Shown in pieces: positions 5,328-56,077 of a stretch of 64,000 nt of DNA. The notes under the pieces are model-generated. The model had not been told where the DNA came from and did no database searches. It saw only the letters and a program-made list of their open reading frames with translations. A program made the position numbers and the translations under genes. Within the stretch, counting starts at the first letter, position 1, and every line of letters starts with the position of its first letter. The DNA is from Tabrizicola sp. (GTDB taxonomy: Bacteria; Pseudomonadota; Alphaproteobacteria; Rhodobacterales; Rhodobacteraceae): positions 372,001 through 436,000 of the forward strand of contig NZ_JALHQD010000002.1 in assembly GCF_022842145.1 (NCBI RefSeq), in the 5' to 3' direction.

Positions 5328-6268
5328 GCTTCGCCGGACTGGCACTGGTGGGGCTTGGGCTGGTCCTCTGGCTGACGGGCGCGCTGGGGCCACTGGCCGA
5401 GTGGCTGCAATCTGCCCAGCGGGCAGCGCAAGAGCGGTTGGCGGGCGCGATCCGTGCCTTGCGCGGAGGAGAGCCGGGGGCCTTGGCCGCGTTCTGGCTG
5501 GTGTGCTTCGGCTACGGCGTGTTGCATGCGGCGGGGCCGGGGCATGGCAAGCTGGTGATCGGCGGCTACGGTGTGGCGCGGCGGGTGCCGGTCGGGCGGC
5601 TGGCGGGGCTGGCGCTGGCGTCAAGCCTGGCACAGGCGGCCGTGGCGGTGGCGCTCGTTTATGCGGCGGTGGCGGTGCTGGGGCTGACCCGCACGGCCGT
5701 CGAGGGCGCGGCAGAGACCTGGGTGACGCCCATCGGCCATGCGATGATCGCCGGGCTGGGGCTGTGGCTGGTCTGGTGCGGGGTCGCGGGACTGCGGCTG
5801 CAGGCGCATGCCAAGGCAAGCGCGCATGGTCATCAGCACGGCCACGGCCATGATCACGGGCACGGGCACGGACATGGGCAGCACAAGCATGGGCACCACG
5901 ACCACGGCCCCGAATGCAACCATGCACACGGCCCGACGGTCGATGAGGTGGAGCGGGTCGGCTCGTTCCGCGACGGGCTGGCACTGGTCGCCGGCATCGC
6001 AATGCGGCCCTGTTCGGGCGCGCTGTTCGTGCTGGTCCTGACCTGGCAACTGGGTATTGCCGCGGCAGGGGTTGCCGGGGCTTTCGTCATGGGACTTGGG
6101 ACCGCGCTGGTCACGGTCGCCGCGGCGCTGCTGGCGGTCTGGGCGCGGGAGGGGGCCTTGTCGGGCCTTGGGTCGGGCGGTGTCGCCCGGGCGATGCCGC
6201 TGGTGCAGCTGGCCGTCGGGGCGGTGATCGCCATTGCCGCCGGTAGTCTCTTGATCCAGGCCCTCTGA
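5312..6268 (+). CDS. NicO/RcnA-type nickel-cobalt efflux membrane protein
   Basis: A 318-residue inner membrane protein with a signature HAAGPGHGK at 72-80 and a second conserved block MRPCSGALFVLVLTW after the central loop, both typical of the NicO superfamily. Between them lies a cytoplasmic or periplasmic loop (about 172-207) very rich in histidine (repeated HGHGH and HDHG), a likely Ni/Co binding site. About six membrane segments are visible. It overlaps the DUF1007 gene by 16 bases and is probably co-transcribed with it. No RcnR-type repressor gene is adjacent, so regulation is not evident. Confidence 0.9.
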   Translation: MRRALGFAGLALVGLGLVLWLTGALGPLAEWLQSAQRAAQERLAGAIRALRGGEPGALAAFWLVCFGYGVLHAAGPGHGKLVIGGYGVARRVPVGRLAGLALASSLAQAAVAVALVYAAVAVLGLTRTAVEGAAETWVTPIGHAMIAGLGLWLVWCGVAGLRLQAHAKASAHGHQHGHGHDHGHGHGHGQHKHGHHDHGPECNHAHGPTVDEVERVGSFRDGLALVAGIAMRPCSGALFVLVLTWQLGIAAAGVAGAFVMGLGTALVTVAAALLAVWAREGALSGLGSGGVARAMPLVQLAVGAVIAIAAGSLLIQAL

Positions 6269-6329
6269 CGCCGCGGCGCGGCGGAGAGGGTGGCTTGTGC
6301 CGCCACGGGAGCGCGGATAAGCCTGCGGC

Positions 6330-13984: not shown

Positions 13985-14270
13985 TCACTTATCCCCAGAA
14001 GGGACGCCGTTCCGCGACAAAGACCCCGCGCGCCCTGAACGCAAGTTCAGGCGAGTGGAGCTGGATTGTCACAAAAAATTTTGGCTTGGGCGCTGGCCTA
14101 AGCCTTCGGTTCGGCATCCGTGCTTGTTTTGTAAAGGAACCATAACACAAAACGCGCCTGATTCCAACTGCCGCGAAACCGGGCAGTTCAGACGTAACGC
14201 CTTGTAATCACGGAACTTCCCGCGTTGTCACCGATTCGGGGCCACAGATATGCCCGAATCGCATAGGTCT

Positions 14271-14609
14271 TCAGCCGCCGCTACCGCCGGCCTCGGAGAA
14301 ATATTTGGTCAGCTTTCCGGTCTCGCCGTCACGCTCTTCATAGCCGGGAAGCGGGTCCTTCTTGGTCACGATCACCGGCCATTGCACCGCATACTTCCGG
14401 TTGAAGGAAACCCATTCCTCCATATCCGGTTCCGTATCGGGGCGAATTGCGTCGGCGGGGCATTCGGGTTCGCAGACGCCGCAGTCGATGCACTCATCCG
14501 GGTGGATGACGAGCATGTTCTCGCCCTCGTAAAAGCAGTCGACCGGGCAGACCTCGACGCAGTCGGTGTATTTGCAGGCGATGCAGTTGTCGATGACGAC
14601 GTAGGTCAT
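14271..14609 (-). CDS. fdxA: Seven-iron ferredoxin FdxA
   Basis: A 112-residue ferredoxin with one [3Fe-4S] and one [4Fe-4S] cluster. Cysteines at 9, 17, 21, 40, 43, 46 and 50 fit the spacing of the Azotobacter FdI family, and C12 and C25 are extra cysteines in the same region. The C-terminal extension ([17 protein letters not shown]) is characteristic. It is an essential-type electron carrier in alphaproteobacteria. It lies downstream of the S4 protein gene on the same strand, 52 bases away. Confidence 0.95.
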
Positions 14610-14661
14610 GGGCGTGGCCTTGGTACGAAGCGTTTGCGCCTAGCTAAGGCAGACGGGCGGA

Positions 14662-14985
14662 TCATTCAAGCGGGTCCGGGGCAGATGGGCCCGGATCGAG
14701 GTCCAGATAAAGCGCCTGCGCCTCGGACGCGGGGCCGCGGCGCTGGCCCAGGGCCAGGATGCGGACGACGCGGATGCGGTTGGCTTGCGGGAAGGTCAGG
14801 GTGTCGCCCAGCGTCACGTCGCGGCCGGGGCGGCTGATCCGGGTGCCGTTCACGCGGACATGGCCTTCCTCGATCATCCCGGCGGCCAGGCTGCGCGACT
14901 TGAAGAACCGGGCCTGCCAGAGCCATTTGTCCAGCCGCACCCTTGCGGCAGCGGCTGGATCAGGTTTGCCCGAAGGCCCGGCCAA
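14662..14985 (-). CDS. S4-domain RNA-binding protein (Hsp15-like)
   Basis: A 107-residue protein with an S4 fold: VRLDKWLWQARFFKSRSLAAG followed by GHVRVNG and GDTLTFPQ. This matches the heat-shock protein 15 family, which binds free 50S subunits carrying nascent chains. No ATG is available before the domain. The best start is TTG 14985, directly after the helicase stop codon (14986-14988), with AAGGGCAAGG in the helicase 3' end serving as ribosome site, so the two are translationally coupled. Confidence 0.85.
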   Translation of the reverse strand: MAGPSGKPDPAAAARVRLDKWLWQARFFKSRSLAAGMIEEGHVRVNGTRISRPGRDVTLGDTLTFPQANRIRVVRILALGQRRGPASEAQALYLDLDPGPSAPDPLE

Positions 14986-42973: not shown

Positions 42974-44112
42974 AGGAACGCCCCCTCGATGGCACTGCCT
43001 TCGGCACGGTGGGCGGCAAAGCCCATTGCGGCGGCGATGGTTGGCGCGATGGCGGACTGGTCCACCGGCGTGTCGATCACGCCACGCGCAATGCCGGGAC
43101 CGAAGAGCACCGCCCAGGTTTCGTGTGCGGACCGCGAGTTGAAATGATGCTGGAAGGGGACTTCGGCCAGCGGGTTCGCATCGCGCCCGCAGTCCGGAGT
43201 GATCACGAAAATTGTCCGGTCGCGGTAGAACGGGTCCGCATCTGCCGCTGCCACCAGACGTTGCAGGCCTTCGTCAATGATGGCGATGGCGCGGGTGTAG
43301 TGGCTGGCGTTGCCCCAGTGGACATAGTCGGGGTCCTGGTAGTTCACCATCAGGAAGCGCGGTTTCAACTCGGCCAGCGCGCGGGCGGAAAGTTCGGTCA
43401 GCAGCCGGTCGCCGCGCGGGTTCTTCAACCCGGTGTCGCCGAAGTCCTGCCGCCAGCGCGCCCAGAACGCCTGCACCTCGGGCGAGGGGGCGGGCGTCTC
43501 ACCGCGCGCGTCGGCCGTCAGAAGCGCCTGACGCTCTTGCGCAATGCCGCGCAACTGATCTTCCGGCAGGCGGCCCTCGGCCAGTTGCATCGCGGAGCGG
43601 TAAAGCTTGTAGCGGTGCAGGCTCAGCATCTCGGACCGGTGGGCGACGCCGAAGTGATCGCCCGCGCCGAAGGTGAAGAACTCTTCCTGCGGGCGGTCCT
43701 CGCCGTTCACCAGAAGCACCTGGTGCGAAGGGATGTCGAAGCTGCGGCGGAGGTATTCGAAGAGCGTCGGCTCGGTGGGCTCCAGCCGGTCGCTGGCCGC
43801 ATCAAGCTTGCGGTAGGCGAGGTAGCGGCCGGTCAGAAGGTTCAGCGTGCCCTCGGCATGGCTGGTGTTCACCCCTTCCAGCCGGTCGATGCGCAGGTCG
43901 GGGATGAAGGTCCCGCGTGGTGCCAGGCTGTGACGCAGGTAGGGCGCCCAGGTCGCGGCCTCGTCGATGGTTTCCGCGCGCCGCACCCCGCCGCCGAAGC
44001 GGACGAGGATGACGTTCGGACCGGAATAGACGGGTTGGGACAGGGCAGGAAACGGGGTGGCGAGGCCGGCGGCCAAGCCCAGGGAACCAAGGGTAAAGCT
44101 GCGGCGGTCCAT
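42970..44112 (-). CDS. Exported alkaline-phosphatase/sulfatase-superfamily protein
   Basis: A 380-residue protein that starts with a twin-arginine-like signal (MDRRSFTLGSLGLAAGLATP). The fold of the alkaline phosphatase superfamily is suggested by GPNVILVRFGGGVRR near the start, QDPDYVHWGNASHYTRAI, and FVITPDCGRDANP with a final HHFNSRSAHETWAVLFGPG. These correspond to typical metal-ligand regions, though the first aspartate site is atypical. Substrate unknown. ATG 44112 is chosen because it yields the signal peptide. Confidence 0.7.
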   Translation of the reverse strand: MDRRSFTLGSLGLAAGLATPFPALSQPVYSGPNVILVRFGGGVRRAETIDEAATWAPYLRHSLAPRGTFIPDLRIDRLEGVNTSHAEGTLNLLTGRYLAYRKLDAASDRLEPTEPTLFEYLRRSFDIPSHQVLLVNGEDRPQEEFFTFGAGDHFGVAHRSEMLSLHRYKLYRSAMQLAEGRLPEDQLRGIAQERQALLTADARGETPAPSPEVQAFWARWRQDFGDTGLKNPRGDRLLTELSARALAELKPRFLMVNYQDPDYVHWGNASHYTRAIAIIDEGLQRLVAAADADPFYRDRTIFVITPDCGRDANPLAEVPFQHHFNSRSAHETWAVLFGPGIARGVIDTPVDQSAIAPTIAAAMGFAAHRAEGSAIEGAFL

Positions 44113-44255
44113 CGCGCCTCCGTACGTGTTAATACGATTAACATTACACGAAAGCCGGCATCTGGCGAGTGATTCCTTGGGGTGGCGTCGGAACAGGCGC
44201 AAAAGCCCCTCGGGCGTGGCCCGGGAGCTTGGAAAGCCTTTCGAAGGACGGGTTT

Positions 44256-44500
44256 CGCATGCCCGTCCCCAGCGCAGAGGTGCCGTTCCATACCAAGGAT
44301 TGCGCCACCAACTGCGCGCATCCCGATCGACGTGGGCCTGCCGTCAAGCGTCCAACGCCGGTGCTCAAGGGTTGCCGGATCGAGCGCCTGGATGTGGCGG
44401 GCGATGATGTCGACCCACATCAGCCGACCAATTCGGTCATCCCAGACTGGGCTTTCGCCGACGACATCCTGTGCCGCAAGACTTGTATTGGACCCATGGC
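44256..44500 (-). pseudogene. SMP-30/gluconolactonase family remnant
   Basis: On the minus strand one frame reads LAAQDVVGESPVWDD, then GRLMWVDIIARHIQALDP, then GRPTSIGMRAVGGAILGMERH. This is the N-terminal quarter of an SMP-30/gluconolactonase beta-propeller. The similarity ends there and the sequence runs into non-homologous DNA before the phosphatase-like gene. A lactonase would fit the sugar-acid pathway just downstream on the other strand, so this is probably a deleted member of that cluster. Confidence 0.65.
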
Positions 44501-44520
44501 AGCGTCCATCAACGAATCCG

Positions 44521-44550
44521 TTGACAGGCAGGCCGACCATAAAATATGTA
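44521..44550 (+). promoter_or_regulatory. Candidate promoter of the GntR catabolic operon
   Basis: TTGACA at 44521-44526 is followed after 18 bases by TATGTA at 44545-44550 in an AT-richer stretch. The start of transcription would fall just before the 17-bp palindrome at 44563. Confidence 0.45.
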
Positions 44551-44562
44551 CCCTTCAAGCCA

Positions 44563-44579
44563 AACCTGTCTGACAGGTT
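44563..44579. promoter_or_regulatory. 17-bp perfect palindrome, probable GntR operator
   Basis: AACCTGTCTGACAGGTT is a perfect inverted repeat about a central T. It lies 12 bases upstream of the GntR-family start codon and downstream of a candidate promoter. Autorepression through such sites is usual for FCD-type GntR regulators. Confidence 0.65.
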
Positions 44580-44591
44580 GAGGGGGATGAG

Positions 44592-45293
44592 TTGGAACAG
44601 GTGGGCAGCAGCGGGCTGGTTGTCGACACTATCGGTGCCATCTCGCGCCATATTCGTGAAAAGGATCTGATGCCCGGCGACAGGTTGCCATCCGAGGCGA
44701 TCCTGTCGAAAGAGTTGAATGTTTCCAGGACCGTGGTGCGCGAGGCGTTCCGGTCGCTCGCGGCCATGCGCATCATTGAGCTCGCAACCGGCAAGCGGGC
44801 CACTGTGGCCCAGATCGACCATGGCGCGATGTCGCTGATGATCGAACACGGGGTGCATACCGACCAGATCAACATTCAGCAGATCTACGACGTCCGGCGC
44901 ACCATCGAGACGCGGATCGTTGCGCTGGCGGCCATCCGGCGCAGTGATGCCGAGGCGGCAGAGATCCTTTCGCTTGCCGCGCAGATGCTGGAGTGCGCTG
45001 ACAACCCCGCCGCCCTGCTGGAGCATGATCTGGCCTTTCACACGACATTGGCCCGCGCGTCGCGAAACCCCGTCTATTCACTGCTGATCGGGGCTTTTCA
45101 GGGGATCATCCGGCAGACCTGGCCGATTGGCTGGAAAAGCCGGCCGACCCAAGCTTCGCGGGATCTGATGCTGGCCACCCATCAAGACATTGCCCGTGCC
45201 GTAGCCGCAGGTGACCCGCAGCAGGCCGTGGACGCCATGGCGCAGCATTTTGATGAAAGCGTGCGGGCCTTGCTGGCGGCAGGCATGTCATGA
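44592..45293 (+). CDS. GntR family (FCD/FadR-type) transcriptional regulator
   Basis: A 233-residue protein. The N-terminal winged helix has LMPGDRLPSEAILSKELNVSRTVVREAFRSL. The C-terminal FCD ligand domain has metal-binding residues in VRRTIETRIVALAA, the EHDLAFHTTLARASRNP segment and THQDIARAVAAGD. These regulators usually respond to sugar acids. The start is probably TTG 44592 after AGGGGG, with GTG 44601 as alternative. Its stop overlaps the next start (ATGA), so it is first gene of the catabolic operon and probably represses it. Confidence 0.9.
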   Translation: MEQVGSSGLVVDTIGAISRHIREKDLMPGDRLPSEAILSKELNVSRTVVREAFRSLAAMRIIELATGKRATVAQIDHGAMSLMIEHGVHTDQINIQQIYDVRRTIETRIVALAAIRRSDAEAAEILSLAAQMLECADNPAALLEHDLAFHTTLARASRNPVYSLLIGAFQGIIRQTWPIGWKSRPTQASRDLMLATHQDIARAVAAGDPQQAVDAMAQHFDESVRALLAAGMS

Positions 45294-46492
45294 AGATCAT
45301 GGCACTGGAAACCATCCGTGTTGCTGAGCGGCCCAATCTCTTGTGGTTGCAGGTTCATACCGACGAAGGTGTTTCCGGCTTGGGTGAAACCTTCTTTGGT
45401 GCCGCCGCGGTCGAGGCGCATGTGCATGACTACATCGCACCCCGGGTCCTTGGCCGCGATCCTTTCGAAATTGATCGCCTGTCCGCCGACCTTGTCGGCT
45501 ATCTGGGATTTCGGTCATCCGGGGCCGAAATGCGAGGCAATTCGGCCTTTGACATTGCGCTGTGGGATCTCTTCGGCAAGGCGATGAACCAGCCCATCGC
45601 GCAAATGCTGGGCGGGTTCACCCGGCGCGAGATTCGCACCTACAACACATGCGCCGGGGTGGACTATGTGAAGAAGACCAGCGGGCAAGTGACAGCGAAC
45701 TATGGCCTTGGCACCCGCCTGGAGTTTGACGACCTGAACGGCTTTCTGACACGGGCCGATGAAGTGGCGCATTCCCTTCTGGAAGAGGGTATCACGGCCA
45801 TGAAGATTTGGCCGTTTGACGCAGCGGCCGAGGCCACTCTCGGCCAGTACATTTCCATGCCAGACATGCGCAAGGCACTGGAACCATTCGAGAAAATCCG
45901 TTCCGCCGTTGGTGACCGGATGGACATCATGGTTGAGTTTCATTCGATGTGGCAGCTTCTGCCCGCCATGCAGATCGCCAAGGCCCTGACGCCATTTCAA
46001 ACGTTCTGGCACGAAGACCCCATCAAGATGGACAGCCTGTCCAGCCTGAAACGCTATGCCGAGGTGTCGCCCGCGCCGATCTCGGCGTCCGAGACGCTGG
46101 CCACCCGCTGGGGCTTTCGCGACCTTCTGGAAACCGGAGCTGCAGGGGTGGTGATGCTGGACCTGTCCTGGTGCGGTGGCCTGTCAGAGGCGCGCAAGAT
46201 CGCCTCAATGGCCGAGGCATGGCACCTGCCAATAGCCCCGCATGATTGTACGGGTCCCGTGGTCTTGTGCGCCAGCACGCATCTGTCGCTTAACGCGCCG
46301 AACGCGCTGATACAGGAAAGCGTGCGCGCCTTCTACCGCACTTGGTACCGCGATCTGGTTACGGCTTTGCCCGAGGTCAAGAACGGCATGATCTCGGTTC
46401 CGCCAGGGGCGGGGCTTGGGATGGCGCTTCATCCCGACCTTGACCGGGCTTTCACGACGTCGCGAAAGATATCCGACGCAACTACGGTCTGA
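45290..46492 (+). CDS. Enolase-superfamily sugar-acid dehydratase (mandelate racemase/muconate lactonizing type)
   Basis: A 400-residue enzyme. Metal ligands are Glu 216 (MVEFHSMW), Glu 242 (WHEDP) and Glu 268 (SASETLATRWG). A general base or acid His 318 lies in APHDCTGPVV, and Lys 172 in MKIWPFD suits the first acid/base position. The pattern fits acid-sugar dehydratases such as galactonate or mannonate dehydratase, giving 2-keto-3-deoxy acids. The exact substrate cannot be assigned. It overlaps the GntR gene by four bases and is followed by a sugar importer. Confidence 0.88.
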   Translation: MKIMALETIRVAERPNLLWLQVHTDEGVSGLGETFFGAAAVEAHVHDYIAPRVLGRDPFEIDRLSADLVGYLGFRSSGAEMRGNSAFDIALWDLFGKAMNQPIAQMLGGFTRREIRTYNTCAGVDYVKKTSGQVTANYGLGTRLEFDDLNGFLTRADEVAHSLLEEGITAMKIWPFDAAAEATLGQYISMPDMRKALEPFEKIRSAVGDRMDIMVEFHSMWQLLPAMQIAKALTPFQTFWHEDPIKMDSLSSLKRYAEVSPAPISASETLATRWGFRDLLETGAAGVVMLDLSWCGGLSEARKIASMAEAWHLPIAPHDCTGPVVLCASTHLSLNAPNALIQESVRAFYRTWYRDLVTALPEVKNGMISVPPGAGLGMALHPDLDRAFTTSRKISDATTV

Positions 46493-46527
46493 AACGGCCG
46501 CAACCTGCTTCATGGGAGGAGCAAAAG

Positions 46528-47505
46528 ATGAAGAAGCTAAAGGGACTGGCCATCGCGGCCATGTTGTCGACGACTGCAACCGGGGCATTCGCCCAAGACC
46601 CGCTGGACATTGTGTTCACCGTCCACTCGGGTGCGTCGAACACCTTCTGGCAGGCCGTGCAAAAGGGGTATGAGGATGCCTGCGGCAAGATCGGCGCAAC
46701 CTGCCAGATGGTCTATTTGCAGACCGACGGCTCGATCCCCGAGCAGGTTGCCAACATGGAGGCAGCCCTTGCCCGCAGCCCTGACGCCCTGATCACCTCG
46801 ATCATCGACAACACCGCCTTTGACGAGGTGATCCAGCGCGCCCGTGACGCCGGTGTGATCGTGATTGCGGCCAACGTGGATGATCTTGAAGGCGCTGCCG
46901 GCAACGCGCGGCAGGCCTTCGTCGGGCAGGGTTTCAAGCCTGCCGGCTATGGCCTGGCGCGCGCCCAATGGGCCAACATGCCTGCCGAAGGGCCGATCCA
47001 TGTGCTTGTTGGCGTCTCTGGCCCGGGTCAAAACTGGTCTGAAACCCGCGCGTTGGGGGTGACGACCTTCCTTGACGAGATGATCGCGGCAAATCCAGAC
47101 CGCGCCATCACCTATGAAAAGATCGACTCCGGCCTTGATCTGGCAATCGTGGCAGACCGTGTCGGGGCGTATCTTTCGGCACGCCCTGAAACCAACGCCT
47201 ACTTCGATACCGGTTTCTGGCATGCAGGCGTCGCGGGCGTGTTGCGCGACCGTGGGATCGAACCGGGCAAGGTTCTGCTTGCGGGCTTTGACCTTGTTCC
47301 CATCGTCCTCGACGAGATGGACGCGGGCTATATTCAGGTCGAGGTGGACCAGCAGCCTTTCATGCAGGGCTTCATGCCGGTGATGATGGTCTATCAGTCC
47401 AAGACGGTCGGCTTGGCCCCGGTGGACATCAACACGGGCGAGGCACTGGTCTACCCCAAGGATGTAGCCGCGGTGCGTGAGCTGTCCGAGCAGGGCCTGC
47501 GCTGA
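46528..47505 (+). CDS. Sugar ABC transporter substrate-binding protein (RbsB-like)
   Basis: A 325-residue periplasmic protein with a signal peptide (MKKLKGLAIAAMLSTTATGAFA). The mature part is a type 1 periplasmic-binding fold: IVFTVHSGASNTFWQAVQKG, then ALITSIIDNTAF, and the hinge region RDRGIEPGKVLLAGFDLVP. It captures a sugar or polyol for the permease and ATPase that follow. A GGAGGA site precedes ATG 46528. Ribose, xylose, inositol or a derivative are all plausible ligands. Confidence 0.9.
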   Translation: MKKLKGLAIAAMLSTTATGAFAQDPLDIVFTVHSGASNTFWQAVQKGYEDACGKIGATCQMVYLQTDGSIPEQVANMEAALARSPDALITSIIDNTAFDEVIQRARDAGVIVIAANVDDLEGAAGNARQAFVGQGFKPAGYGLARAQWANMPAEGPIHVLVGVSGPGQNWSETRALGVTTFLDEMIAANPDRAITYEKIDSGLDLAIVADRVGAYLSARPETNAYFDTGFWHAGVAGVLRDRGIEPGKVLLAGFDLVPIVLDEMDAGYIQVEVDQQPFMQGFMPVMMVYQSKTVGLAPVDINTGEALVYPKDVAAVRELSEQGLR

Positions 47506-47573
47506 CAGTTCGAAACCGGTTGGCGCGGGATGTCCTTGCGCCAACCACCTTCTCATCAAGGGATATCCGCCAG

Positions 47574-48560
47574 ATGCGTCGCCTTTTCAAACTGTCCCTG
47601 CAAAAGCCCGAGCTGGCCAGCGCGCTCTTGCTATTGCTGCTGGTGATCGTGTTCCAGGTCCGGTCCGACAGCGTGTTCCTTTCGGCAAACAACATCCGTG
47701 GAATTCTGGGCATCTTGCCGGAAACCGCGCTCGTTGCCTTGGGTGTGACGCTCTTGATGATCTGTGGTGAGTTTGATCTGTCGGTCGGGTCGGTCTTTGC
47801 CTTGATGCCGATGACTATGGCGGTACTTGTCGTGGGCGGCTGGCCGTTCTGGATTGCCGTGCTGGCAGGACTTTCCCTTTGCGCCCTCATCGGGTTCCTG
47901 AACGGCTGGATCACCATTCGCTACGACATCCCATCCTTCATCACCACGCTTGGCATGCTGTTCATGGCACGCTCTTTGACGGTGGTGATATCTGGCGGCT
48001 TCCCACCCCGGATCAAACCCGGCGAGGTACCAAGCTGGTTGTTCGTCGGCTTTGTCGATGAGGGCGGGCTGGTGCGGGCTTCGGTGCTGTGGTTTGTGGG
48101 CATTGCCATCCTGATCAGCCTTTTGCTGTCCCGCACGAATTTCGGCAACTGGGTCCGTGCAACGGGCGGCTTTCCCCCTGCGGCGGCGGCCATGGGCATA
48201 TCGACGGGCAAGGTCAAGATTGCCTGTTTCATGATCTGCTCTGTGCTTGCCGGCTTTGCGGGCATGATCCAATCCCTGCGCTTGAACTCTTTCCTGCCGT
48301 CGATTGGCGAAGGCATGGAGTTGCAGGCCGTGGCATCCGCCGTGATCGGGGGCACTTCCCTGTCAGGCGGGGTCGGGTCCATCCTGGGCGGGCTGATCGG
48401 TGCCACGCTGATCCGGGTGATCGACAATGGCATGGTCCTGTCGCAGATCGACGCCAACTGGTTCAAGTTCGCCATCGGCGCGCTGACGATCTTTGCGGTG
48501 GTCGGCAATGCGTGGCTGCGCCGCCGTGGCCGCGCCATGAAGGTGGAGACGGACAAATGA
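47574..48560 (+). CDS. Sugar ABC transporter permease (RbsC/BPD_transp_2 family)
   Basis: A 328-residue membrane protein with about nine helices. The family motif region GEFDLSVGSVFAL near 60 and the coupling segment VIGGTSLSGGVGSILGGLIGA near 260-280 are typical of ribose-type permeases. ATG 47574 has AAGGG upstream. It overlaps the ATPase start by four bases (ATGA). One permease gene is present, so it is expected to work as a homodimer. Confidence 0.9.
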   Translation: MRRLFKLSLQKPELASALLLLLLVIVFQVRSDSVFLSANNIRGILGILPETALVALGVTLLMICGEFDLSVGSVFALMPMTMAVLVVGGWPFWIAVLAGLSLCALIGFLNGWITIRYDIPSFITTLGMLFMARSLTVVISGGFPPRIKPGEVPSWLFVGFVDEGGLVRASVLWFVGIAILISLLLSRTNFGNWVRATGGFPPAAAAMGISTGKVKIACFMICSVLAGFAGMIQSLRLNSFLPSIGEGMELQAVASAVIGGTSLSGGVGSILGGLIGATLIRVIDNGMVLSQIDANWFKFAIGALTIFAVVGNAWLRRRGRAMKVETDK

Positions 48561-49288
48561 CCACCCCCATCATCGAAACCCGCAATCTGCACAAATGGTA
48601 CTCGGGCGTGCATGCGCTGAAAGGTGTCAGCCTTAAGGTGGAACCTGGACAGGCCTTGGGTCTGGTGGGCGACAATGGCGCGGGCAAATCGACCCTGATC
48701 AACATCCTCTCTGGTTTGCACCAGCAGGATGAAGGCGAGATTCTGCTGGAAGGCCAGCCGGTCAATATCCGCAACCCCAAGGATTCGATGCGTCTGGGGA
48801 TCGAGACGATCTACCAGTACAACTCGATGGTTCCGCTGATGACGATTTCGCGCAATGTCTTTATCGGACGCGAGCCGTTGAAGTGGTCGATTGGCGGCTT
48901 TGGTATCCTGGATGAACGCAAGATGCGTGAAGACTCGGTCAAGGCGATTGCCGATGTTGACCTGCATCTGCGCTCACCCGATGCGCTGGTGGGTGAATTG
49001 TCGGGCGGCCAGCGGCAAGGCGTGGCAATTGCACGGGCCATGCATTTCAAATCCAAGGTAATGATCCTGGACGAGCCGACGAACCACCTGTCAGTCAAGG
49101 AAACGGCCAAGGTGATCGGCTTTGTCCAAGGCCTCAAGGCGCAGGGCGTGACTGCGATCTTCATCAGCCACAACATGCACCACGTCTTTGCCTGCTGCGA
49201 CCGGATCGTCGCCATGGCGCTGGGTCAGATTGTGCTGGACAAGCCCGTGTCTGAAACTTCGATCGAGGAAGTCTCGGAAATGCTGTGA
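48557..49288 (+). CDS. Sugar ABC transporter ATP-binding protein, single cassette
   Basis: A 243-residue ATPase with Walker [10 protein letters not shown], signature LSGGQRQ and Walker B VMILDEPT. Ribose-type importers often use a double-cassette ATPase of about 500 residues; this one has a single cassette, like the FrcA type. Two copies would pair with the permease dimer. It overlaps the permease gene and the next SDR gene (GTGA). Confidence 0.9.
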
Positions 49289-50001
49289 CCGCCATGACCG
49301 ATCTGTCCGAAAAACATGCCCTGGTCACCGGGGGCGTCGGCACCATCGGCACCGCCATTGCCACGGCCTTGGCCGCAGCCGGGGCGCGGGTGACGGTGCT
49401 TGACCGCCCCTCCGCCCCGCCACCTGTCGGCCACGGCTGGCTTGGCGTGGACCTTGGCGACCTGTCGGGCGTGCAGGCCCGGGTGGCCGCGGCAGGCCCC
49501 TTTGACATCCTGATCAACAACGCGGCCCTGATCATCAACAAGCCTTTCGAAGAATTCAGCCTTGAAGAATACGAGGAGCAGATCCGCATCAACTCATCGG
49601 CCGCCTTCGCCCTGACCCGCGCCTGCGCCCCCGCGATGAAGGCTAGGGGCTGGGGCCGTGTCATCAACCTGACCTCGCTGACGCTGAACGGCCAATGGGA
49701 CGGTTTTGTACCTTACGTCGCCTCGAAGGGCGCATTGCTGGGCCTGACCCATGCGCTGGCGCGAGAACTTGGGCCCCATGGCATCACTGTCAATGCCATC
49801 TCCCCCGGTGCCGTGGTGTCCGAGGCCGAGAACCGCGTGTTTGCCGACCGTCTGGACGAATACAACCGCTTCATCCTTGACCGCCAGAGCCTGAAGTCCC
49901 GGATCCAGGCGGAAGACGTGGCTAATCTGGCGGTGTTTCTGGCATCGGATGCGGCGCGGATGATCTCGGGCCAGAACATCGGCATCGACGGGGGCTGGTA
50001 A
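49285..50001 (+). CDS. Short-chain dehydrogenase/reductase
   Basis: A 238-residue oxidoreductase. The nucleotide-binding motif is TGGVGTIG near 15-22, NNAA is present, and the catalytic Ser-Tyr-Lys triad is in NLTSL...YVASKGAL. GTG 49285 overlaps the ATPase stop; ATG 49294 is an equally plausible start. In this operon it probably oxidises the imported sugar to a lactone or a keto-sugar. The aldose epimerase gene starts immediately after its stop. Confidence 0.88.
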   Translation: MTAMTDLSEKHALVTGGVGTIGTAIATALAAAGARVTVLDRPSAPPPVGHGWLGVDLGDLSGVQARVAAAGPFDILINNAALIINKPFEEFSLEEYEEQIRINSSAAFALTRACAPAMKARGWGRVINLTSLTLNGQWDGFVPYVASKGALLGLTHALARELGPHGITVNAISPGAVVSEAENRVFADRLDEYNRFILDRQSLKSRIQAEDVANLAVFLASDAARMISGQNIGIDGGW

Positions 50002-50850
50002 ATGATCACGCTGACCGCAGGTCCGTCGAAGGCCGAGATCATTGCCGAAATGGGGGCCGGGCTGGCTGGTCTGTGGGCCGACAAAAAGCCTGTGCTCCGG
50101 CCCTGGTCAGGCCGTGTGCAAGATGGCCTCTTTGCGCTGGCCTGCAACCTGCTGGTGCCCTTTTCGAACCGGATTTCGGGTGGCGGCTTTGACTATGAGG
50201 GGGCACGGCACTCGCTTCACCCCAATTTGCCGGGCGAGGTCTGTCCGATCCATGGCGATGGCTTTCAGCGGCCCTGGCAAGTGGTGGACGTGACCGGGAA
50301 CCGTGCCGAACTGAGCCTGGTGGGTGGTGAAATCGGCCCGTTCCGTCATTCCGCCTCTGTCCGGTACCACCTGACCCAAGGGTCGCTGGAAACCCGGCTT
50401 TCCGTCACCAATACCGGCGATCTGGCCTTGCCCTTTGGTCTGGGTCTTCATCCCTGGTTCCCGCGCGATGAAGATACCCGCCTGCAATTCAGCGCCACCG
50501 GTCAGTGGCCCGAGGGCCCCGACCACCTGCCGACATCGCCGGTCCCGGTACCATTCGGCACGACCTGCCCCTGGGCGCGGCCTGAACCATTGCCGCACGG
50601 CTGGATCAACAGCGGGTTTTCCGGTTGGGACGGCAAGGCCCGGATCGTTCAGGGCAATGCGGCCATGTCGTTGCGGATCGCCTGCACAGGCCTTGGCACG
50701 GCCCTGCTTTATTCCCCGTCCGATCGAGCCGACTTCTTCTGTTTCGAGCCGGTTTCGCATCCGGTCGACGCGCATAATCTGCCCAGTCAACCCGGACTTG
50801 TCCGCCTTGCCCCCGGTGCAGATTTCATCGTTTCAATGACCCTGAACTGA
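50002..50850 (+). CDS. Aldose 1-epimerase family protein
   Basis: A 282-residue protein with the galactose-mutarotase fold: NLLVPFSNRISGGGFDYEG, IHGDGFQRPWQV with the catalytic His region, GLGLHPWFPRD, and a C-terminal FEPVSHPVDAHN with a probable catalytic Glu. It interconverts sugar anomers and would feed a beta-specific dehydrogenase. It starts directly after the SDR stop codon, so coupling is tight. Confidence 0.87.
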   Translation: MITLTAGPSKAEIIAEMGAGLAGLWADKKPVLRPWSGRVQDGLFALACNLLVPFSNRISGGGFDYEGARHSLHPNLPGEVCPIHGDGFQRPWQVVDVTGNRAELSLVGGEIGPFRHSASVRYHLTQGSLETRLSVTNTGDLALPFGLGLHPWFPRDEDTRLQFSATGQWPEGPDHLPTSPVPVPFGTTCPWARPEPLPHGWINSGFSGWDGKARIVQGNAAMSLRIACTGLGTALLYSPSDRADFFCFEPVSHPVDAHNLPSQPGLVRLAPGADFIVSMTLN

Positions 50851-50893
50851 GAGCACGCCGCATGACCCCGCTTCGCCGACCAAAGGTGCAACC

Positions 50894-51994
50894 ATGACCA
50901 CAGCCACAATCCCCGTCGGACAACGCGACTACAGTCTGGTCGGTGCCGACAGCCGCCGCGCCGTCGAGATCGGACTGGCATCGGCGGAATGGTATCATTC
51001 CCAGGTGCCACGTGCCGTGATGAAAGACCTGATGAAGCGCACCGACGGCCCGGCTATCCGCGATACGATCCTGTGGTTTGCGCTGCTGATCGGCGGGGCG
51101 TGGGGGGGCATATACTTCTGGGGCACCTGGGCAGCCGTGCCGTTCTTCATCGTTTACGGCGTGATCTATGGGTCATCTTGCGACAGCCGCTGGCATGAAT
51201 GCGGCCATGGCACAGCCTTCAAGACCGCCTGGATGAACGATGTCATCTACCAGATCGCAAGCTTCATGGTGATCCGCAATCCCGTCACCTGGCGCTGGAG
51301 CCATGCCCGCCACCACACCGATACCTACATCGTCGGTCGCGACGCCGAAATCGCCTGGATGCGTCCGCCGAGGACCCTGATGAACTTCCTCGCCTTTTTC
51401 GATGTCATCGGCTCGTTCAAGTCGTTGCAGATCCTTCTCCGCAACGCTTCGGGAAGGCTTTCGCCGGATGAAAAGGACTTCATTCCGCAAAGCGAATGGG
51501 GCAGGACCGTCTTTGCCGCCCGCGTCCATATGGCCATCTATGCTGCAACCGTGGTCACGGCCCTCTGGATGCAGTCATGGCTGCCCCTGTTCCTGATCGG
51601 CTTTCCGCGCATCTACGGCTGCTGGCACATGGTGATGTGCGGGCACCTGCAGCATGCGGGGCTTGCGGAGAACGTGCTGGATCACCGGCTGAATTCGCGC
51701 ACCGTCTACATGAACCCGATCAGCCGCTACATCTACTGGAACATGAACTACCACATCGAACATCACATGTTCCCGATGGTGCCCTATCACGCACTTCCGC
51801 GCCTGCACGCGTTGATCAAGGACGATCTGCCGCCGCCCAACCCCTCGATCCTGGATGGCTACCGCGAGATCCTGGCCTCTCTGCGCCAGCAGAAGATCGA
51901 CCCAGAATACTATTTGCGCAAGGAACTGCCCCCCACGGCCCGGCCCTACCGCGAAGAGTTTCACAACCTCGACATCGCCCGTCCTGGGACCTGA
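50894..51994 (+). CDS. MocD-like di-iron membrane oxygenase (fatty acid desaturase family)
   Basis: A 366-residue protein with about four membrane helices and the three histidine boxes of the desaturase/hydroxylase family: HECGH at 101-105, HARHH at 137-141 and HIEHH at 287-291. An extra HLQHAG lies near 251. The combination with a small Rieske ferredoxin two genes away recalls MocD/MocE of rhizopine catabolism in rhizobia, where a hydrocarbon-oxygenase-like protein is thought to remove an O-methyl group. So the role here is probably oxygenation of the imported compound, not lipid desaturation. This is inference from family and context. Confidence 0.85.
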   Translation: MTTATIPVGQRDYSLVGADSRRAVEIGLASAEWYHSQVPRAVMKDLMKRTDGPAIRDTILWFALLIGGAWGGIYFWGTWAAVPFFIVYGVIYGSSCDSRWHECGHGTAFKTAWMNDVIYQIASFMVIRNPVTWRWSHARHHTDTYIVGRDAEIAWMRPPRTLMNFLAFFDVIGSFKSLQILLRNASGRLSPDEKDFIPQSEWGRTVFAARVHMAIYAATVVTALWMQSWLPLFLIGFPRIYGCWHMVMCGHLQHAGLAENVLDHRLNSRTVYMNPISRYIYWNMNYHIEHHMFPMVPYHALPRLHALIKDDLPPPNPSILDGYREILASLRQQKIDPEYYLRKELPPTARPYREEFHNLDIARPGT

Positions 51995-52005
51995 AGGAGA
52001 CTGCC

Positions 52006-52806
52006 ATGACCCGGACCAAACCCACCATCGCCGATCTTCGGGCCCGCAAGGGCAAAGGACAGTTGACCATGCTGCGCGTGATGTCGCTGGAGGAGGCGGC
52101 GGCCGCCGAAGACGCGGGCATCGACATCGTCTCGGTGCCTGCCGAAATCGTCACCCATCCGCGCTACCGCGAAGTGGCGCCGACCCTGTTTTCGATGACC
52201 GGCCAGACCCATCTGGAGGCGGGGACGCGCGACGATTATCTGCGTTGGGCCTGCAAGGTAATGCTGGCGGGGGCGGACGCGGTCTATTGCTCGGGCGGGC
52301 TTGGCACGGTGGAACATGTGGCGCGGGAACATATCCCCGTGGTCGGCCATGTCGGTCTGGTGCCCAGCCGCGCCACCTGGACCGGTGGCATGAAGGCGGT
52401 GGCCAAAACCGCGCAGGATGCCATGGCCCTGCTGGATGAAGTGCGCGCCTATGAGGCGGCGGGGGCCTTTGCGGTCGAGATCGAGGTTGTCCCCGTCGAA
52501 GTCGCCAGCGAAATCAGCCGAAGGGTCGGCATCCTCTTGTGGTCGATGGGGGCGGGCCCGGGCTGCGATGCGCAATACCTGTTCGCAGAAGACATTCTGG
52601 GTACCAACCGCGGCCACATGCCCCGGCATTCGAAAGTCTATCGCAACTTTGCCGAGGAATATGACCGCCTGCAGGCCGAACGGGTGGCGGCGTTTCGAGA
52701 ATTCATCGCCGATGTCGCCTCGTCGGCCTATCCCGAAGACAAGCACGTCGTCAAAATGTTACCGGAGGAACTGTCAGCGTTCAAAGCCGCCATTCCCGCG
52801 GACTAA
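52006..52806 (+). CDS. PanB-like (KPHMT/PEP-mutase superfamily) protein of unknown activity
   Basis: A 266-residue TIM-barrel protein. VVGHVGLVPSRATWTGG, EIEVVPVEVASEIS and the CDAQYLFAEDILG segment match ketopantoate hydroxymethyltransferase. The positions that bind Mg in PanB differ: the VGDS motif is VPAEI, the ADLPF aspartate is missing, and KIEGG is YCSGG. The catalytic-type Glu in EIEVVP is kept. It may therefore be a lyase or aldolase on another small acid, such as the keto-acid from the dehydratase. GAAGGAGA precedes ATG 52006. Confidence 0.82.
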   Translation: MTRTKPTIADLRARKGKGQLTMLRVMSLEEAAAAEDAGIDIVSVPAEIVTHPRYREVAPTLFSMTGQTHLEAGTRDDYLRWACKVMLAGADAVYCSGGLGTVEHVAREHIPVVGHVGLVPSRATWTGGMKAVAKTAQDAMALLDEVRAYEAAGAFAVEIEVVPVEVASEISRRVGILLWSMGAGPGCDAQYLFAEDILGTNRGHMPRHSKVYRNFAEEYDRLQAERVAAFREFIADVASSAYPEDKHVVKMLPEELSAFKAAIPAD

Positions 52807-52834
52807 ACCGACGAAAGGACAGGAGAGAAGCACC

Positions 52835-53149
52835 ATGCCGGAATGGATTCGCGCCTGCGCGGAAACCGATATCGAGCGCGAAGATCTGATCCGCTTTGAC
52901 CACGCCGGATCTACCTATGCCATCTATCACGCACCCGACGGCCAGTTCTATGCCACCGCAGGCCGCTGCACCCATGAGGACGTGCATCTCTGTGACGGGC
53001 TGGTAATGGGACATCTGATCGAATGCCCGAAACACAACGGCCAATTCGACTATCGCACGGGCGAGGCAAAGCGTGCCCCCGTCTGCGTCAATCTGCGGAC
53101 ATTTCCCGTGAAGGCTAAGGATGGCTTGGTGTTCATCGATGTAGATTGA
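52835..53149 (+). CDS. MocE-like Rieske [2Fe-2S] ferredoxin
   Basis: A 104-residue soluble ferredoxin. The cluster ligands are Cys 45 and His 47 in CTHEDVHLC and Cys 64 and His 67 in CPKHNGQF, the classical Rieske pair. Length fits small ferredoxins that feed oxygenases. Its natural partner is the MocD-like membrane oxygenase. AGGAGAG precedes ATG 52835. No ferredoxin reductase gene is in the window. Confidence 0.9.
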   Translation: MPEWIRACAETDIEREDLIRFDHAGSTYAIYHAPDGQFYATAGRCTHEDVHLCDGLVMGHLIECPKHNGQFDYRTGEAKRAPVCVNLRTFPVKAKDGLVFIDVD

Positions 53150-53439
53150 GGCTCCACCCTGGCGGCAAGTCAGTGACCTGGTCGGACCCATGCGAGGACG
53201 AGCGGCGCTCTTTTTGGTCATGCCGACGACGACAGGGTGTTTCGGCTGCATTTGAATGTCCTTCAGGGGCGGGATGCAGACGCTCGCTGTTTGTACGAAG
53301 TTCAGCGCGGCAACCGCAAAAGCTGCCCCTTGGTTCAGGAAGTGATGGGAAGGCCGGCGTCTAGGGGCGCGAACCTCGCCGGCGGAATAGAGTTTGGCAT
53401 GTAGCCCCTTGGCCTCTATCGTCGCCCGATATCCATTTC
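53150..53439. other. 290-bp gap without a gene
   Basis: I see no convincing coding frame, hairpin terminator or repeat. It separates the MocE-like gene from the regulator. Low coding bias suggests a junction or decayed sequence. Confidence 0.5.
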
Positions 53440-54969
53440 TTGGGCGTTGCAGTGATTGATCCCGTTCAACCCCACATTGAGCTACTGCGTAGCTTGCGCA
53501 GGCTCAGGATCGACGGTTCTGAACAGGTTATCGGCGCGCGGGCCTTCGACGTGCTGGCCTATCTTGACGCGCATTCCGGCCGGGTGGTGACCAAGGCGGA
53601 ACTCTTGGAGCATGTCTGGGCCGATCTTAACGTCGAGGAAAGCAACCTCACGGTCCAGATCGCCACGCTGCGCAAGCTGATCGGCGCGCGGGCCATCGCG
53701 ACGGTGCCGGGTGTCGGGTATCAGTTGACCCTGGCGGCCACCTCTCCGGCAGATCCGGAAAAGGCCTTGCCGCTGCCGGACAAGCCCTCGCTCGCGGTGC
53801 TTCCCTTCGCCAACCTCACGGGCGATGCGGGCAAGGACTATCTGGTGGATGGGATCGTCTCTGACCTGATCGGGACGCTGTCCCGCATTCCTACGGTTTT
53901 TGTGATCGGAGCGAACACCAGCTTCACCTTCAAGGGCCGCAGCGTCGATCTGGCCGAGGTCGGTCGGCAACTGGGTGTGCGGTACATTCTGGAGGGCGGC
54001 ATTCAGGTCGCCGGCGATCGACTGAGGATCAACACACAGCTTGTCGACGCTGCGGCCGGACACACGATCTGGAGTCAGCGTTTCGATGGCGCTCTGGACG
54101 AGATCTTCGCGTTGCAGGATCAAGTGAGCGCACAAATAGCCGCCGTGATCGAGCCCAACCTGATCCTTGCCGAACAGCGGCACGCCAGCTCCAAACCGAC
54201 GACCGACCTCATGGCCTATGACCTGTGCCAGCAGGCCGCTATGTTGGCGCATCGGGTCGCGTACATGGAGTCGTTCACCAAGGCGAAAGCGTTGTTGGAG
54301 CGTGCGATCGCGCTTGATCCGGACTATGCGCAAGCAAAGGCATTGATGTGTCGCTTGTATTTGGTCGCCTACGGGGCCCGCTTCATCAGTATCGACGAGG
54401 CCCGCACAGCGCTGCCGCTGGCCGAGGAGATACTGGAGTCGTCACCGGCCGATCCACTCGTCCTGACATATGCCGGACATTTGATCGGCTATGTCGGCGG
54501 TCAGTCCGTGCGTGCGGCAGGCCTGCTGCGACAGGCCCTTGGATTCCATCCCAATTCCAGCTTCGTGCTGATATCTTCAGGCTATGTCCACACCTACGCC
54601 GAAGAGCTGGACATCGCTGCTGATCATTTTCGCCGAGCGATCCGACTGGACCCGCTGGCGCCGAACACTGGCCATGCCTACGTCGGACTGGGACTTGCCC
54701 TGCTGATGGCTGGGCAAGTGGATGCGGCGATTTCCACACTTGAGCAGGCGCTGACGCAGGTCCCGGAAATGGGGACGCTGCACCAGTTCCTTACCGTTGC
54801 CTATTGGTCCGCTGGTCGCAAGGAGGAGGCCGCTCGCCATTGCTCGATTCTGATGCAGAAAGTCCCGGACCTGACGATCTCGGGACTGCTGAATGACATG
54901 CCGCAGCGATTGCCAAGCTTCCGCGTCCTGGTCGAAGCGGCGTTGCGCGGGCTGGGAGTTCCGGAATGA
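53440..54969 (+). CDS. CadC/OmpR-type winged-helix regulator with TolB-like and TPR domains
   Basis: A 509-residue protein. Residues about 1-100 are an OmpR-type DNA-binding domain (GARAFDVLAYLDAHSGRVVTK; LLEHVWADLNVEES; TLRKLIGARAIATVPGVGY). Residues 118-255 have the TolB-like block seen in adenylate-cyclase-related regulators (PSLAVLPFANLTGD; YILEGGIQVAGDRLRINTQLVDA; QVSAQIAAVIEP). The rest is TPR-like helices to the end (ALLERAIALDPDYAQAKAL; AISTLEQALTQVPEMG). No membrane helix is seen. The start is uncertain (TTG 53440 or GTG 53452). Its target is unknown; the catabolic operon or the remnant beside it are candidates. Confidence 0.82.
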   Translation: MGVAVIDPVQPHIELLRSLRRLRIDGSEQVIGARAFDVLAYLDAHSGRVVTKAELLEHVWADLNVEESNLTVQIATLRKLIGARAIATVPGVGYQLTLAATSPADPEKALPLPDKPSLAVLPFANLTGDAGKDYLVDGIVSDLIGTLSRIPTVFVIGANTSFTFKGRSVDLAEVGRQLGVRYILEGGIQVAGDRLRINTQLVDAAAGHTIWSQRFDGALDEIFALQDQVSAQIAAVIEPNLILAEQRHASSKPTTDLMAYDLCQQAAMLAHRVAYMESFTKAKALLERAIALDPDYAQAKALMCRLYLVAYGARFISIDEARTALPLAEEILESSPADPLVLTYAGHLIGYVGGQSVRAAGLLRQALGFHPNSSFVLISSGYVHTYAEELDIAADHFRRAIRLDPLAPNTGHAYVGLGLALLMAGQVDAAISTLEQALTQVPEMGTLHQFLTVAYWSAGRKEEAARHCSILMQKVPDLTISGLLNDMPQRLPSFRVLVEAALRGLGVPE

Positions 54970-55291
54970 CCGCGCCCCCTGCACAGTCGGTCGTCATCCT
55001 GCCCGCCGGGCGCGCGGTGCGGATCGATGGCGAGACCGGGGAGATCGGCGCGCGGGCCTTTGACGTGCTGTACTATCTCGACGCGCCATCCGGCCGGGTG
55101 GTGACCAAGGTGGAACTGCTGGAGCATGTCTGGGCCTGCACAAGCTGATCGGAGCGCGGACCATCGTCGACGGTGCCGAGTGTCGCCTTATCAATTGACG
55201 CTTTCCGCCGAAGCTCAGGCAGATCCGGCAAAGGCCCCGCCATTGCCGGACAAGCCGTCGCTCGCGGTACAGCCTTTTGCCAACCTGACAA
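54966..55291 (+). pseudogene. Decayed tandem duplicate of the winged-helix regulator
   Basis: ATG 54966 overlaps the stop of the intact regulator. The frame gives 60 residues almost the same as its DNA-binding domain (GARAFDVLYYLDAPSGRVVTK; LLEHVWA) and then stops. Compared with the intact copy, 46 bases are missing between GTCTGGGCC and TGCACAAGCTG, which shifts the frame. The homology goes on in another frame through KLIGA and on to PDKPSLAV and FANLT, and then is lost near 55291. It is a relic of a tandem duplication. Confidence 0.8.
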
Positions 55292-55352
55292 GGTGCCCGA
55301 TGACCATCGCAGGATGGGGGCTTGTCTGCGCGGCATCGGCATACCGGAGTGA

Positions 55353-55586
55353 TCAGCGCCGCTGTAAAAGCCGGTCCACAGTACGGCGCGCCTCTTCGCG
55401 GCGGGCCTGTGCAGCCAGGATTTCCTCGGGCGCGCGGCGCATGGCTCTGCGTTCGGCATTCCGCGCGGTGGCTTGGGCCAGAGCGCCGCAAGCGGTCCGA
55501 AACAGGGTGATCAGCCATGTGAAAGCCGCGGCGATTTTTCCGGTGCTGTCGGCCGATTGCGAATGGCTGATGGGAAGGTCTGTCAT
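55353..55586 (-). CDS. Small protein of unknown function
   Basis: A 77-residue protein with a GGAGG site just before ATG 55586. It has a hydrophobic stretch near 18-40 (KIAAAFTWLITLFRTACGALA) and a basic, charged C-terminal half (ERRAMRRAPEEILAAQARREEARRTVDRLLQRR in two helical runs). It looks like a membrane-associated small protein with an amphipathic tail. I do not recognise the family. Confidence 0.5.
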   Translation of the reverse strand: MTDLPISHSQSADSTGKIAAAFTWLITLFRTACGALAQATARNAERRAMRRAPEEILAAQARREEARRTVDRLLQRR

Positions 55587-55993
55587 GGTCTGTTCCTCCG
55601 GTCCTGGTTGACCAGACAAACCTGTCAGACGAGGGCCATCATCGTCCTGAAGCGGTCCGAATTCTTCCGAAATGCATTCCGAAAAGTTCCAATTCCAGTG
55701 TCGGCTGCAAAGTGGTTATAGCTATCTCGCGATCACTTTGGCTTCGCAAGGAAGAGCCCAAAGCAGGATTAGAGCGGGAGCTGCAACCGCTACAGCGAGT
55801 CCGCGCCCAGAGTGCCGGGGCTGGAACAACTGCTCTCGGGGCGCATCGAATTGTCTGCGAGGAACAAAGGCTGAGCAAGCACAGCTTGTCGCACTACGTT
55901 TGCTTCAGCCGCATTGATTTTGATGGGTTTTTGGAGCGTCGAGCAGCCTCAACCGCCAAAAACGCAATACAAATCACACATTAGGTTTCCTGA
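55587..55993. other. 407-bp gap next to tRNA-Tyr, lower GC, no recognisable gene
   Basis: This stretch has lower GC than its neighbours and short open frames on both strands that match nothing I know. A short direct repeat (TTCCGAA twice near 55665-55685) and a near-palindrome CTGGTTGACCAG near 55602 are visible. It abuts the 3' end of the tRNA gene, a typical junction for integrated elements. Confidence 0.5.
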
Positions 55994-56077
55994 TGGTGGG
56001 CGATCCTGGAATCGAACCAGGCATGAGTCGCCTCGGCGGAGTTACAGTCCGCTGCCACACCTTGTAGCATATCGCCC
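55994..56077 (-). tRNA. tRNA-Tyr (anticodon GTA)
   Basis: Acceptor GGGCGAT pairs with ATCGCCC, followed by discriminator A and an encoded CCA. The anticodon stem GCGGA/TCCGC encloses the loop CTGTAAC with anticodon GTA. A class II variable arm (GAG-GCGA-CTC) is present, as expected for bacterial tRNA-Tyr. The T arm is CCTGG-TTCGATT-CCAGG. The 3' end points into the accessory region at lower coordinates, so it is a candidate integration site. Confidence 0.96.

Follow-up and report, generated by a model that had tools for sequence, protein, structure and literature searches.

A sugar-acid operon joined to a MocD/MocE-type oxygenase and a PanB-like protein that may capture formaldehyde on folate

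Why would a cluster of sugar-acid genes carry a membrane oxygenase of the MocD/MocE type together with a protein that resembles PanB? This question is raised by positions 44592 to 53149 of a 64,000-nucleotide stretch of Tabrizicola sp. (contig NZ_JALHQD010000002.1, positions 372,001 to 436,000), which we call the window. Our answer is that the cluster is probably an operon whose substrate is an O-methylated sugar or sugar acid, in which the PanB-like protein would capture the formaldehyde from demethylation on tetrahydrofolate (THF). From gene content, gene order, conservation, predicted fold, residue loss, and neighbor patterns, we infer the reactions, the order of the steps, and the substrate class.

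The open reading frame (ORF) list and family searches confirm ten genes here, where the first-pass annotation had counted nine or ten closely packed ones. All lie on the forward strand with intergenic gaps of 0–43 bases; neighboring genes overlap by 4 bases at two junctions or three, according to which start of the short-chain dehydrogenase (SDR) is taken. Pfam and model searches support the families originally named, except that the PanB-like protein falls far under the PanB cut-offs. The genes, followed by a divergent relic, are listed below.

44592..45293, + strand, GntR/FCD (FadR-type) regulator (PF00392, PF07729); its TTG start is unsure
45290..46492, + strand, MR/MLE enzyme of the enolase superfamily, a probable sugar-acid dehydratase (PF13378/PF02746)
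46528..47505, + strand, RbsB-like binding protein (PF13407)
47520..48560, + strand, RbsC-like permease, start at 47520 or 47574 (PF02653)
48557..49288, + strand, importer ATPase of 243 amino acids with one nucleotide-binding domain (PF00005)
49285..50001, + strand, SDR, start at 49285 or 49294 (PF13561)
50002..50850, + strand, aldose 1-epimerase family protein (PF01263)
50894..51994, + strand, MocD-type membrane di-iron oxygenase, FA_desaturase domain (PF00487, 122.3 bits)
52006..52806, + strand, PanB-like protein, proposed one-carbon folate enzyme (PF02548)
52835..53149, + strand, MocE-family Rieske ferredoxin (TIGR02377, 163.4 bits against a cut-off of 136.15)
44208..44480, - strand, SMP-30/gluconolactonase relic (tblastn with the Ensifer canadensis lactonase: 91 amino acids aligned, 40% identity)

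In addition to its FA_desaturase domain, the oxygenase has the histidine boxes HECGH, HARHH, and HIEHH, and together with the MocE-family ferredoxin it is best read as an oxidative O-demethylase. Rhizopine (an O-methyl inosamine) is the known substrate of mocDEF (PMC10107442, PMC3538637), and the tie to an O-methylated inositol made in the first-pass annotation fits, with homologous mocDEF genes present in rhizopine loci (PMC10107442). A Mesorhizobium study places mocDEF next to FixV-type LacI genes (PMC3538637). Alternatively, MocD/MocE might hydroxylate a C–H bond of a deoxy sugar, with methyl groups uninvolved and the PanB-like protein acting on the product. The sugar genes, which form a complete set with no demethylase both in E. 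canadensis and in Sinorhizobium meliloti, would suit such a reaction, as would the hydroxylases within the MocD family, such as GntB (a weak match); the methylated substrate of mocDEF and the one-carbon folate genes at some loci speak against it, and we consider it improbable.

In the demethylation pathway that we favor, the importer would take up an O-methylated sugar or sugar acid, and MocD, supplied by MocE and an unlinked reductase, would hydroxylate the O-methyl group. The resulting hemiacetal would break down, releasing formaldehyde and the free sugar. The PanB-like protein, with the PanB fold, His136, and Glu181 but no metal site, would perform the folate half alone of PanB chemistry, attaching the one-carbon unit, as formaldehyde or as the newly formed hydroxymethyl ether, to THF to give 5,10-methylene-THF. 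FolD, plus PurU where present, would carry this through 10-formyl-THF to formate, while the SDR would oxidize the freed sugar and the MR-family enzyme would dehydrate the resulting acid. Gene content fits the uptake, O-dealkylation, oxidation, and dehydration steps that had been suggested at first; cleavage of the sugar by the PanB-like protein is less likely. The MocF ferredoxin reductase was not found in the cluster, and the best candidate in the genome is unlinked and 45% identical.

The PanB-like protein scores far under the PanB models (100.5 versus 207.55 bits for TIGR00222 and 123 versus 272 for NF001452). Its predicted structure, a ligand-free model with a mean confidence (pLDDT, predicted local distance difference test) of 93.5, has the PanB fold: PanB chains take ranks 1–28 in one structure comparison and 1–6 in a second, with proteins of the phosphoenolpyruvate (PEP) mutase/isocitrate lyase group more distant. 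The metal site of PanB serves to enolize the keto acid. At D45, D84, and E114, which we take to be the residues of that site, the window protein has A, G, and S, and it keeps H136 and E181 of PanB. Among 123 PanB-like proteins (matches under 100 bits or 240 amino acids were left out), K112 and E114 are kept in none, D84 in 2, and D45 in 9, while H136 is kept in all 123 and E181 in 122.

These residues bear on the view that the sugar-acid pathway has its aldolase in this protein, which would split the 2-keto-3-deoxy acid formed by the MR-family enzyme. The cluster holds no other aldolase, a fold that groups with PanB and more distantly with the PEP mutase/isocitrate lyase group is compatible with such a role, and genes for IlvD-type dehydratases occur inside or close to L005, L085, L087, L089, L164, L175, and L177 (loci carry our own numbers). 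Aldolase activity is nonetheless unlikely, given that the metal-site residues are gone from the family, that the fetched rhizopine loci have no annotated dehydratase, and that purU and folD as neighbors would go unexplained. A one-carbon enzyme is more likely than a sugar-cleaving one, because the metal site is lost, several oxygenase families precede the gene, and some relatives stand ahead of purU/folD.

We counted apart from the 123 a 'GDS-type' PanB group of seven proteins (L109, L110, L133, L180–L183), which keep D45 and K112 and not D84 and E114. Members in L133 (5161–8796) and L181 (3209–7347) have VanA-type Rieske and GcvT-type genes as neighbors, that in L180 (6370–9766) an MTTB gene, and that in L110 Lon.

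Across 198 genomes of the window's family, 38 carry both a PanB-like protein (E below 1e-40) and MocD (E below 1e-60), 11 the PanB-like protein alone, 18 MocD alone, and 131 neither (Fisher p = 2e-17, odds ratio 25). MocD lies within 8 kb of 22/23 PanB-like matches at E < 1e-100, 18/31 at 1e-100 to 1e-70, 10/24 at 1e-70 to 1e-40, and 0/13 at 1e-40 to 1e-25, some of these last 13 looking like true PanB. Conversely, 29 of the 45 MocD matches at E < 1e-160 have a PanB-like gene within 8 kb. The pairing counts use MocD matches down to E 3e-29, from a listing that reached 8.5e-26.

A blastp comparison with reference proteins finds an oxygenase-type match within 6 kb in 98 of 126 PanB-like loci, which are not independent of one another (matches under 90 bits were left out and L193–L198 are not included). 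The partners are MocD in 74 loci, FA_hydroxylase in 19, Rieske in 7, and the 2-oxoglutarate-dependent (2OG) PhyH/TauD type in 6, some loci having two. The nearest match is on the strand of the PanB-like gene in 93 of the 98, and matches number 104 in the 1.04 Mb within 4 kb and 10 in the 0.94 Mb beyond. Pfam confirms FA_hydroxylase in L017, L116, and L132; Rieske of the VanA type in L109 and L133 and of the ring-hydroxylating type in L111, L129, and L167; PhyH in L174, L176, and L178; and TauD in L178. On a quick tree of 77 PanB-like proteins, with copies at or above 82% identity thinned beforehand and partners labeled by hand, the partner label takes about 10 changes. Two single loci may be recorded here: a marine alphaproteobacterial one (L089, 1142–11914) strings together two MocD, three PanB-like, MocE, FA_hydroxylase, SMP-30, and IlvD genes, and L106 (7328–8158) has a PanB-like gene in an apparent mur gene run, with no oxygenase match.

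This tight linkage to oxygenases would also suit a noncatalytic PanB-like protein, acting as a scaffold, a stabilizer, or a formaldehyde-binding oxygenase partner, with formaldehyde and THF condensing unaided and FolD/PurU finishing the conversion. A direct THF route without a known enzyme has indeed been described (PMC8879981, PMC539335). Several oxygenase families as partners, however, argue against one physical partner, the near-universal retention of H136 and E181 speaks against a noncatalytic role, and the spontaneous rate is slow in E. coli (PMC7073904); we regard this possibility as rather unlikely.

Folate genes near some relatives are consistent with the PanB-like protein acting on formaldehyde. 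PurU directly follows it in 5 of 26 Mesorhizobium-titled loci; in Gemmobacter, PurU lies 95 bp away on the opposite strand, in L165 it is 1.9 kb away, and in L125 the PanB-like, FolD, and PurU genes are consecutive. PurU is uncommon, with 31 copies in 100 genomes of the window's family, and we therefore estimate chance adjacency at about 3 in 10,000 loci. L103 has MocD-MocE near a formate dehydrogenase operon, with no PanB-like gene there. FdsA/FdsB-like neighbors in L053 were not taken as support, as we read them as a probable hydrogenase/NADH dehydrogenase module.

The order mocD-mocE-mocF-panBlike-purU-folD occurs in A. tumefaciens HAMBI 105, M. huakuii pMHb, and P. zundukense, the full folD of the last being seen by tblastn only. 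S. meliloti p_1 has mocD-mocE-mocF, the PanB-like gene, and purU without folD, and R. indicum has the same with purU and a partial folD. Three of these loci (P. zundukense, S. meliloti p_1, and R. indicum) are of the rhizopine type, with the PanB-like gene and purU coming next after mocDEF, and in P. zundukense the regulator qualifies as MocR by the equivalog model (765 bits, cut-off 650). Altogether, purU is present in 5 of nine plasmid loci hand-chosen among the best matches, L094 and L198 being one S. meliloti locus; MocD of L195 was detected by tblastn only (5436–6287), without a listed gene. MocR at 80% identity or higher is found in 14 plasmid records, 13 of which have a PanB-like match about 3 kb off, and the 14th lies outside the best 60 PanB-like matches listed. 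MocR proved a better finder of rhizopine loci than the rhizopine binding-protein model, which picked out 3 of 385 genomes of the class at E 1e-110, two of them over the cut-off, with neither MocD nor a PanB-like gene in the 18–19 kb read in each.

For the family as a whole, we see an even chance that PanB-like proteins without the metal site are the missing enzyme condensing formaldehyde with THF, a folate counterpart of Fae that was repeatedly recruited beside different demethylating oxygenases and that has been overlooked within the rhizopine operon (mocDEF-panBlike-purU-folD). No formaldehyde-capture role for PanB-like proteins was found in the literature searched, mostly without subscription journals. 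In E. coli, spontaneous condensation of formaldehyde with THF is reported to be too slow for growth, and the tetrahydromethanopterin (H4MPT) route has Fae (PMC7073904); in a review, the THF step is called spontaneous (PMC8879981).

Several observations weigh against formaldehyde capture by the PanB-like protein. In methanol-grown M. extorquens, the direct THF route took up to 30% of the formaldehyde flux and was termed nonenzymatic (PMC539335), and thus an enzyme may not be needed. Only 13 of the 126 PanB-like loci, L053 included, have a one-carbon gene within 6 kb; PurU is absent directly after the PanB-like gene in the rest of the Mesorhizobium-titled loci; purU is absent from 4 of the nine plasmid loci; and both purU and folD are absent from the S. 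meliloti pSymB, R. etli, and R. leguminosarum loci read. The window operon itself lacks FolD, PurU, and MocF, and PurU was not found at E 1e-60 in the genome, which encodes two FolD proteins along with a formate dehydrogenase. MocD also occurs without a PanB-like protein (16 of the 45 strongest matches have none within 8 kb, and 18 family genomes have none), and such a partner is therefore at most helpful and not essential. No oxygenase match was found in 28 of the 126 loci, 10 of which lie within 1 kb of an end. The Rieske and 2OG references were taken from PanB-like loci themselves, with Pfam confirming part of the matches, and L128 has a weak 2OG match. Because MocD-linked copies served as seeds for the collection search, MocD is overrepresented among the partners. 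Finally, L177 retains two of the three metal residues, and invariant residues specific to the PanB-like family could build another metal site.

The operon consists of two separable modules, each of which exists apart in other genomes. The sugar half (GntR, the MR-family enzyme, a CUT2-type importer with a single-domain ATPase, the SDR, and the epimerase) stands in identical order on E. canadensis pT173d (48–82% identity), next to an FAH-family gene, and likewise on S. meliloti pSymA (40–76%), with an extra GntR gene inside; the literature searched gave no function for this cluster. Agrobacterium sp. RAC06 was rejected as a further case, having the GntR and MR genes alone. The single catabolic set first proposed is thus borne out in part, the halves occurring apart and yet the joined order recurring, when the same neighborhood was sought elsewhere, in five related metagenome-assembled genomes (L018, L020–L023) at 70–94% identity per gene. 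This recurrence, like the co-occurrence of MocD with the PanB-like protein, speaks against a chance arrangement. The epimerase (50–61%) is present in two of the five and absent from L018, L020, and L021, and MocE is seen in four and was not found in L022; four of the five show gene losses. As the first-pass annotation had held, no described pathway with exactly this set was found in the literature searched. In L023, a Rhodobacteraceae genome, a sulfatase-like ORF named by eye (914–2416) lies upstream of the joined operon, which hints that the substrate could be an algal sugar, sulfated or methylated.

Of the genes of a nonphosphorylative sugar-acid pathway, the SDR and the MR-family enzyme are present, and the lactonase, divergent to the operon, survives as the 91-residue relic only. 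A full-length lactonase match is kept in L018, L020, and L021, where 297 residues align, and also occurs in L093. The MR/MLE enzyme scores under the equivalog cut-offs, and its nearest solved chains are 4dx3/4dxk and 2pod.

The Tabrizicola genome has a second MocD-MocE-PanB set (L005, 9567–18049; C1, about 811.6–820.0 kb), at 61–63%, 76%, and 51–52% identity, respectively. It runs divergently to a group of LacI, TIM-barrel, ABC, and Gfo/Idh genes whose binding-protein gene is split into two same-frame ORFs (14069–14653 and 14678–15010), perhaps by a nonsense change. A third PanB-like gene adjoins an FA_hydroxylase gene (L017, 8222–10021; C1, about 601.2–603.0 kb) within a UxuA/SMP-30/SDR/ABC cluster that may encode a further demethylation pathway.

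GC content is about 61% across 44–56 kb of the window versus 64–70% in the remaining 4-kb steps, and the low-GC stretch (44001–56000) ends close to a tRNA-Tyr at 55994–56077. A search for island edges around it gave a single 13-base direct match. Terminator-like signals are not enriched in the operon (4 seen versus 7.1 expected from shuffles), and no relatives were found among the viral contigs searched.

If the proposed role is correct, an enzyme family for formaldehyde entry into folate metabolism would settle an open question and add to what has been published on rhizopine use. It could also aid synthetic methylotrophy, and the PanB-like family could serve as a marker of unknown demethylation pathways.

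Among known systems, the mocDEF genes of rhizobial rhizopine catabolism, for which Bahar 1998 is said to be the primary paper, resemble the oxygenase half, with MocD at 63–64% and MocE at 58–61% identity in L194–L196 and a PanB-like neighbor in the loci read. The window operon differs in having neither MocR nor MocF and in carrying a sugar-acid half instead. Its regulator fails the MocR model NF052281 (25.2 versus 650 bits), and its binding protein is under the rhizopine-binding model NF052284 (118.5 versus 420 bits), a weak test because the binding protein encoded next to MocR in P. zundukense gave no match at E 1e-30 either. The available text of one rhizopine paper names the units mocDEF, mocR, mocBA, and mocC and there leaves panB, purU, and formaldehyde unmentioned (PMC10107442). 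PanB, the ketopantoate hydroxymethyltransferase (reviewed in PMC7770189), differs from the window protein in its metal-site residues and model scores. The E. canadensis and S. meliloti sugar clusters share the same seven genes in the same order (40–82% identity) and differ in lacking MocD, the PanB-like gene, and MocE. In marine Flavobacteriia, oxidative O-demethylation of 6-O-methyl-D-galactose likewise releases formaldehyde, by a cytochrome P450 with an alcohol dehydrogenase, and the portion consulted mentions no PanB-like protein (PMC10033563). Fae uses another cofactor, H4MPT, and is likened here by proposed role rather than by sequence or fold (PMC7073904, PMC8879981); what the two would share is a faster condensation of formaldehyde with a pterin carrier.

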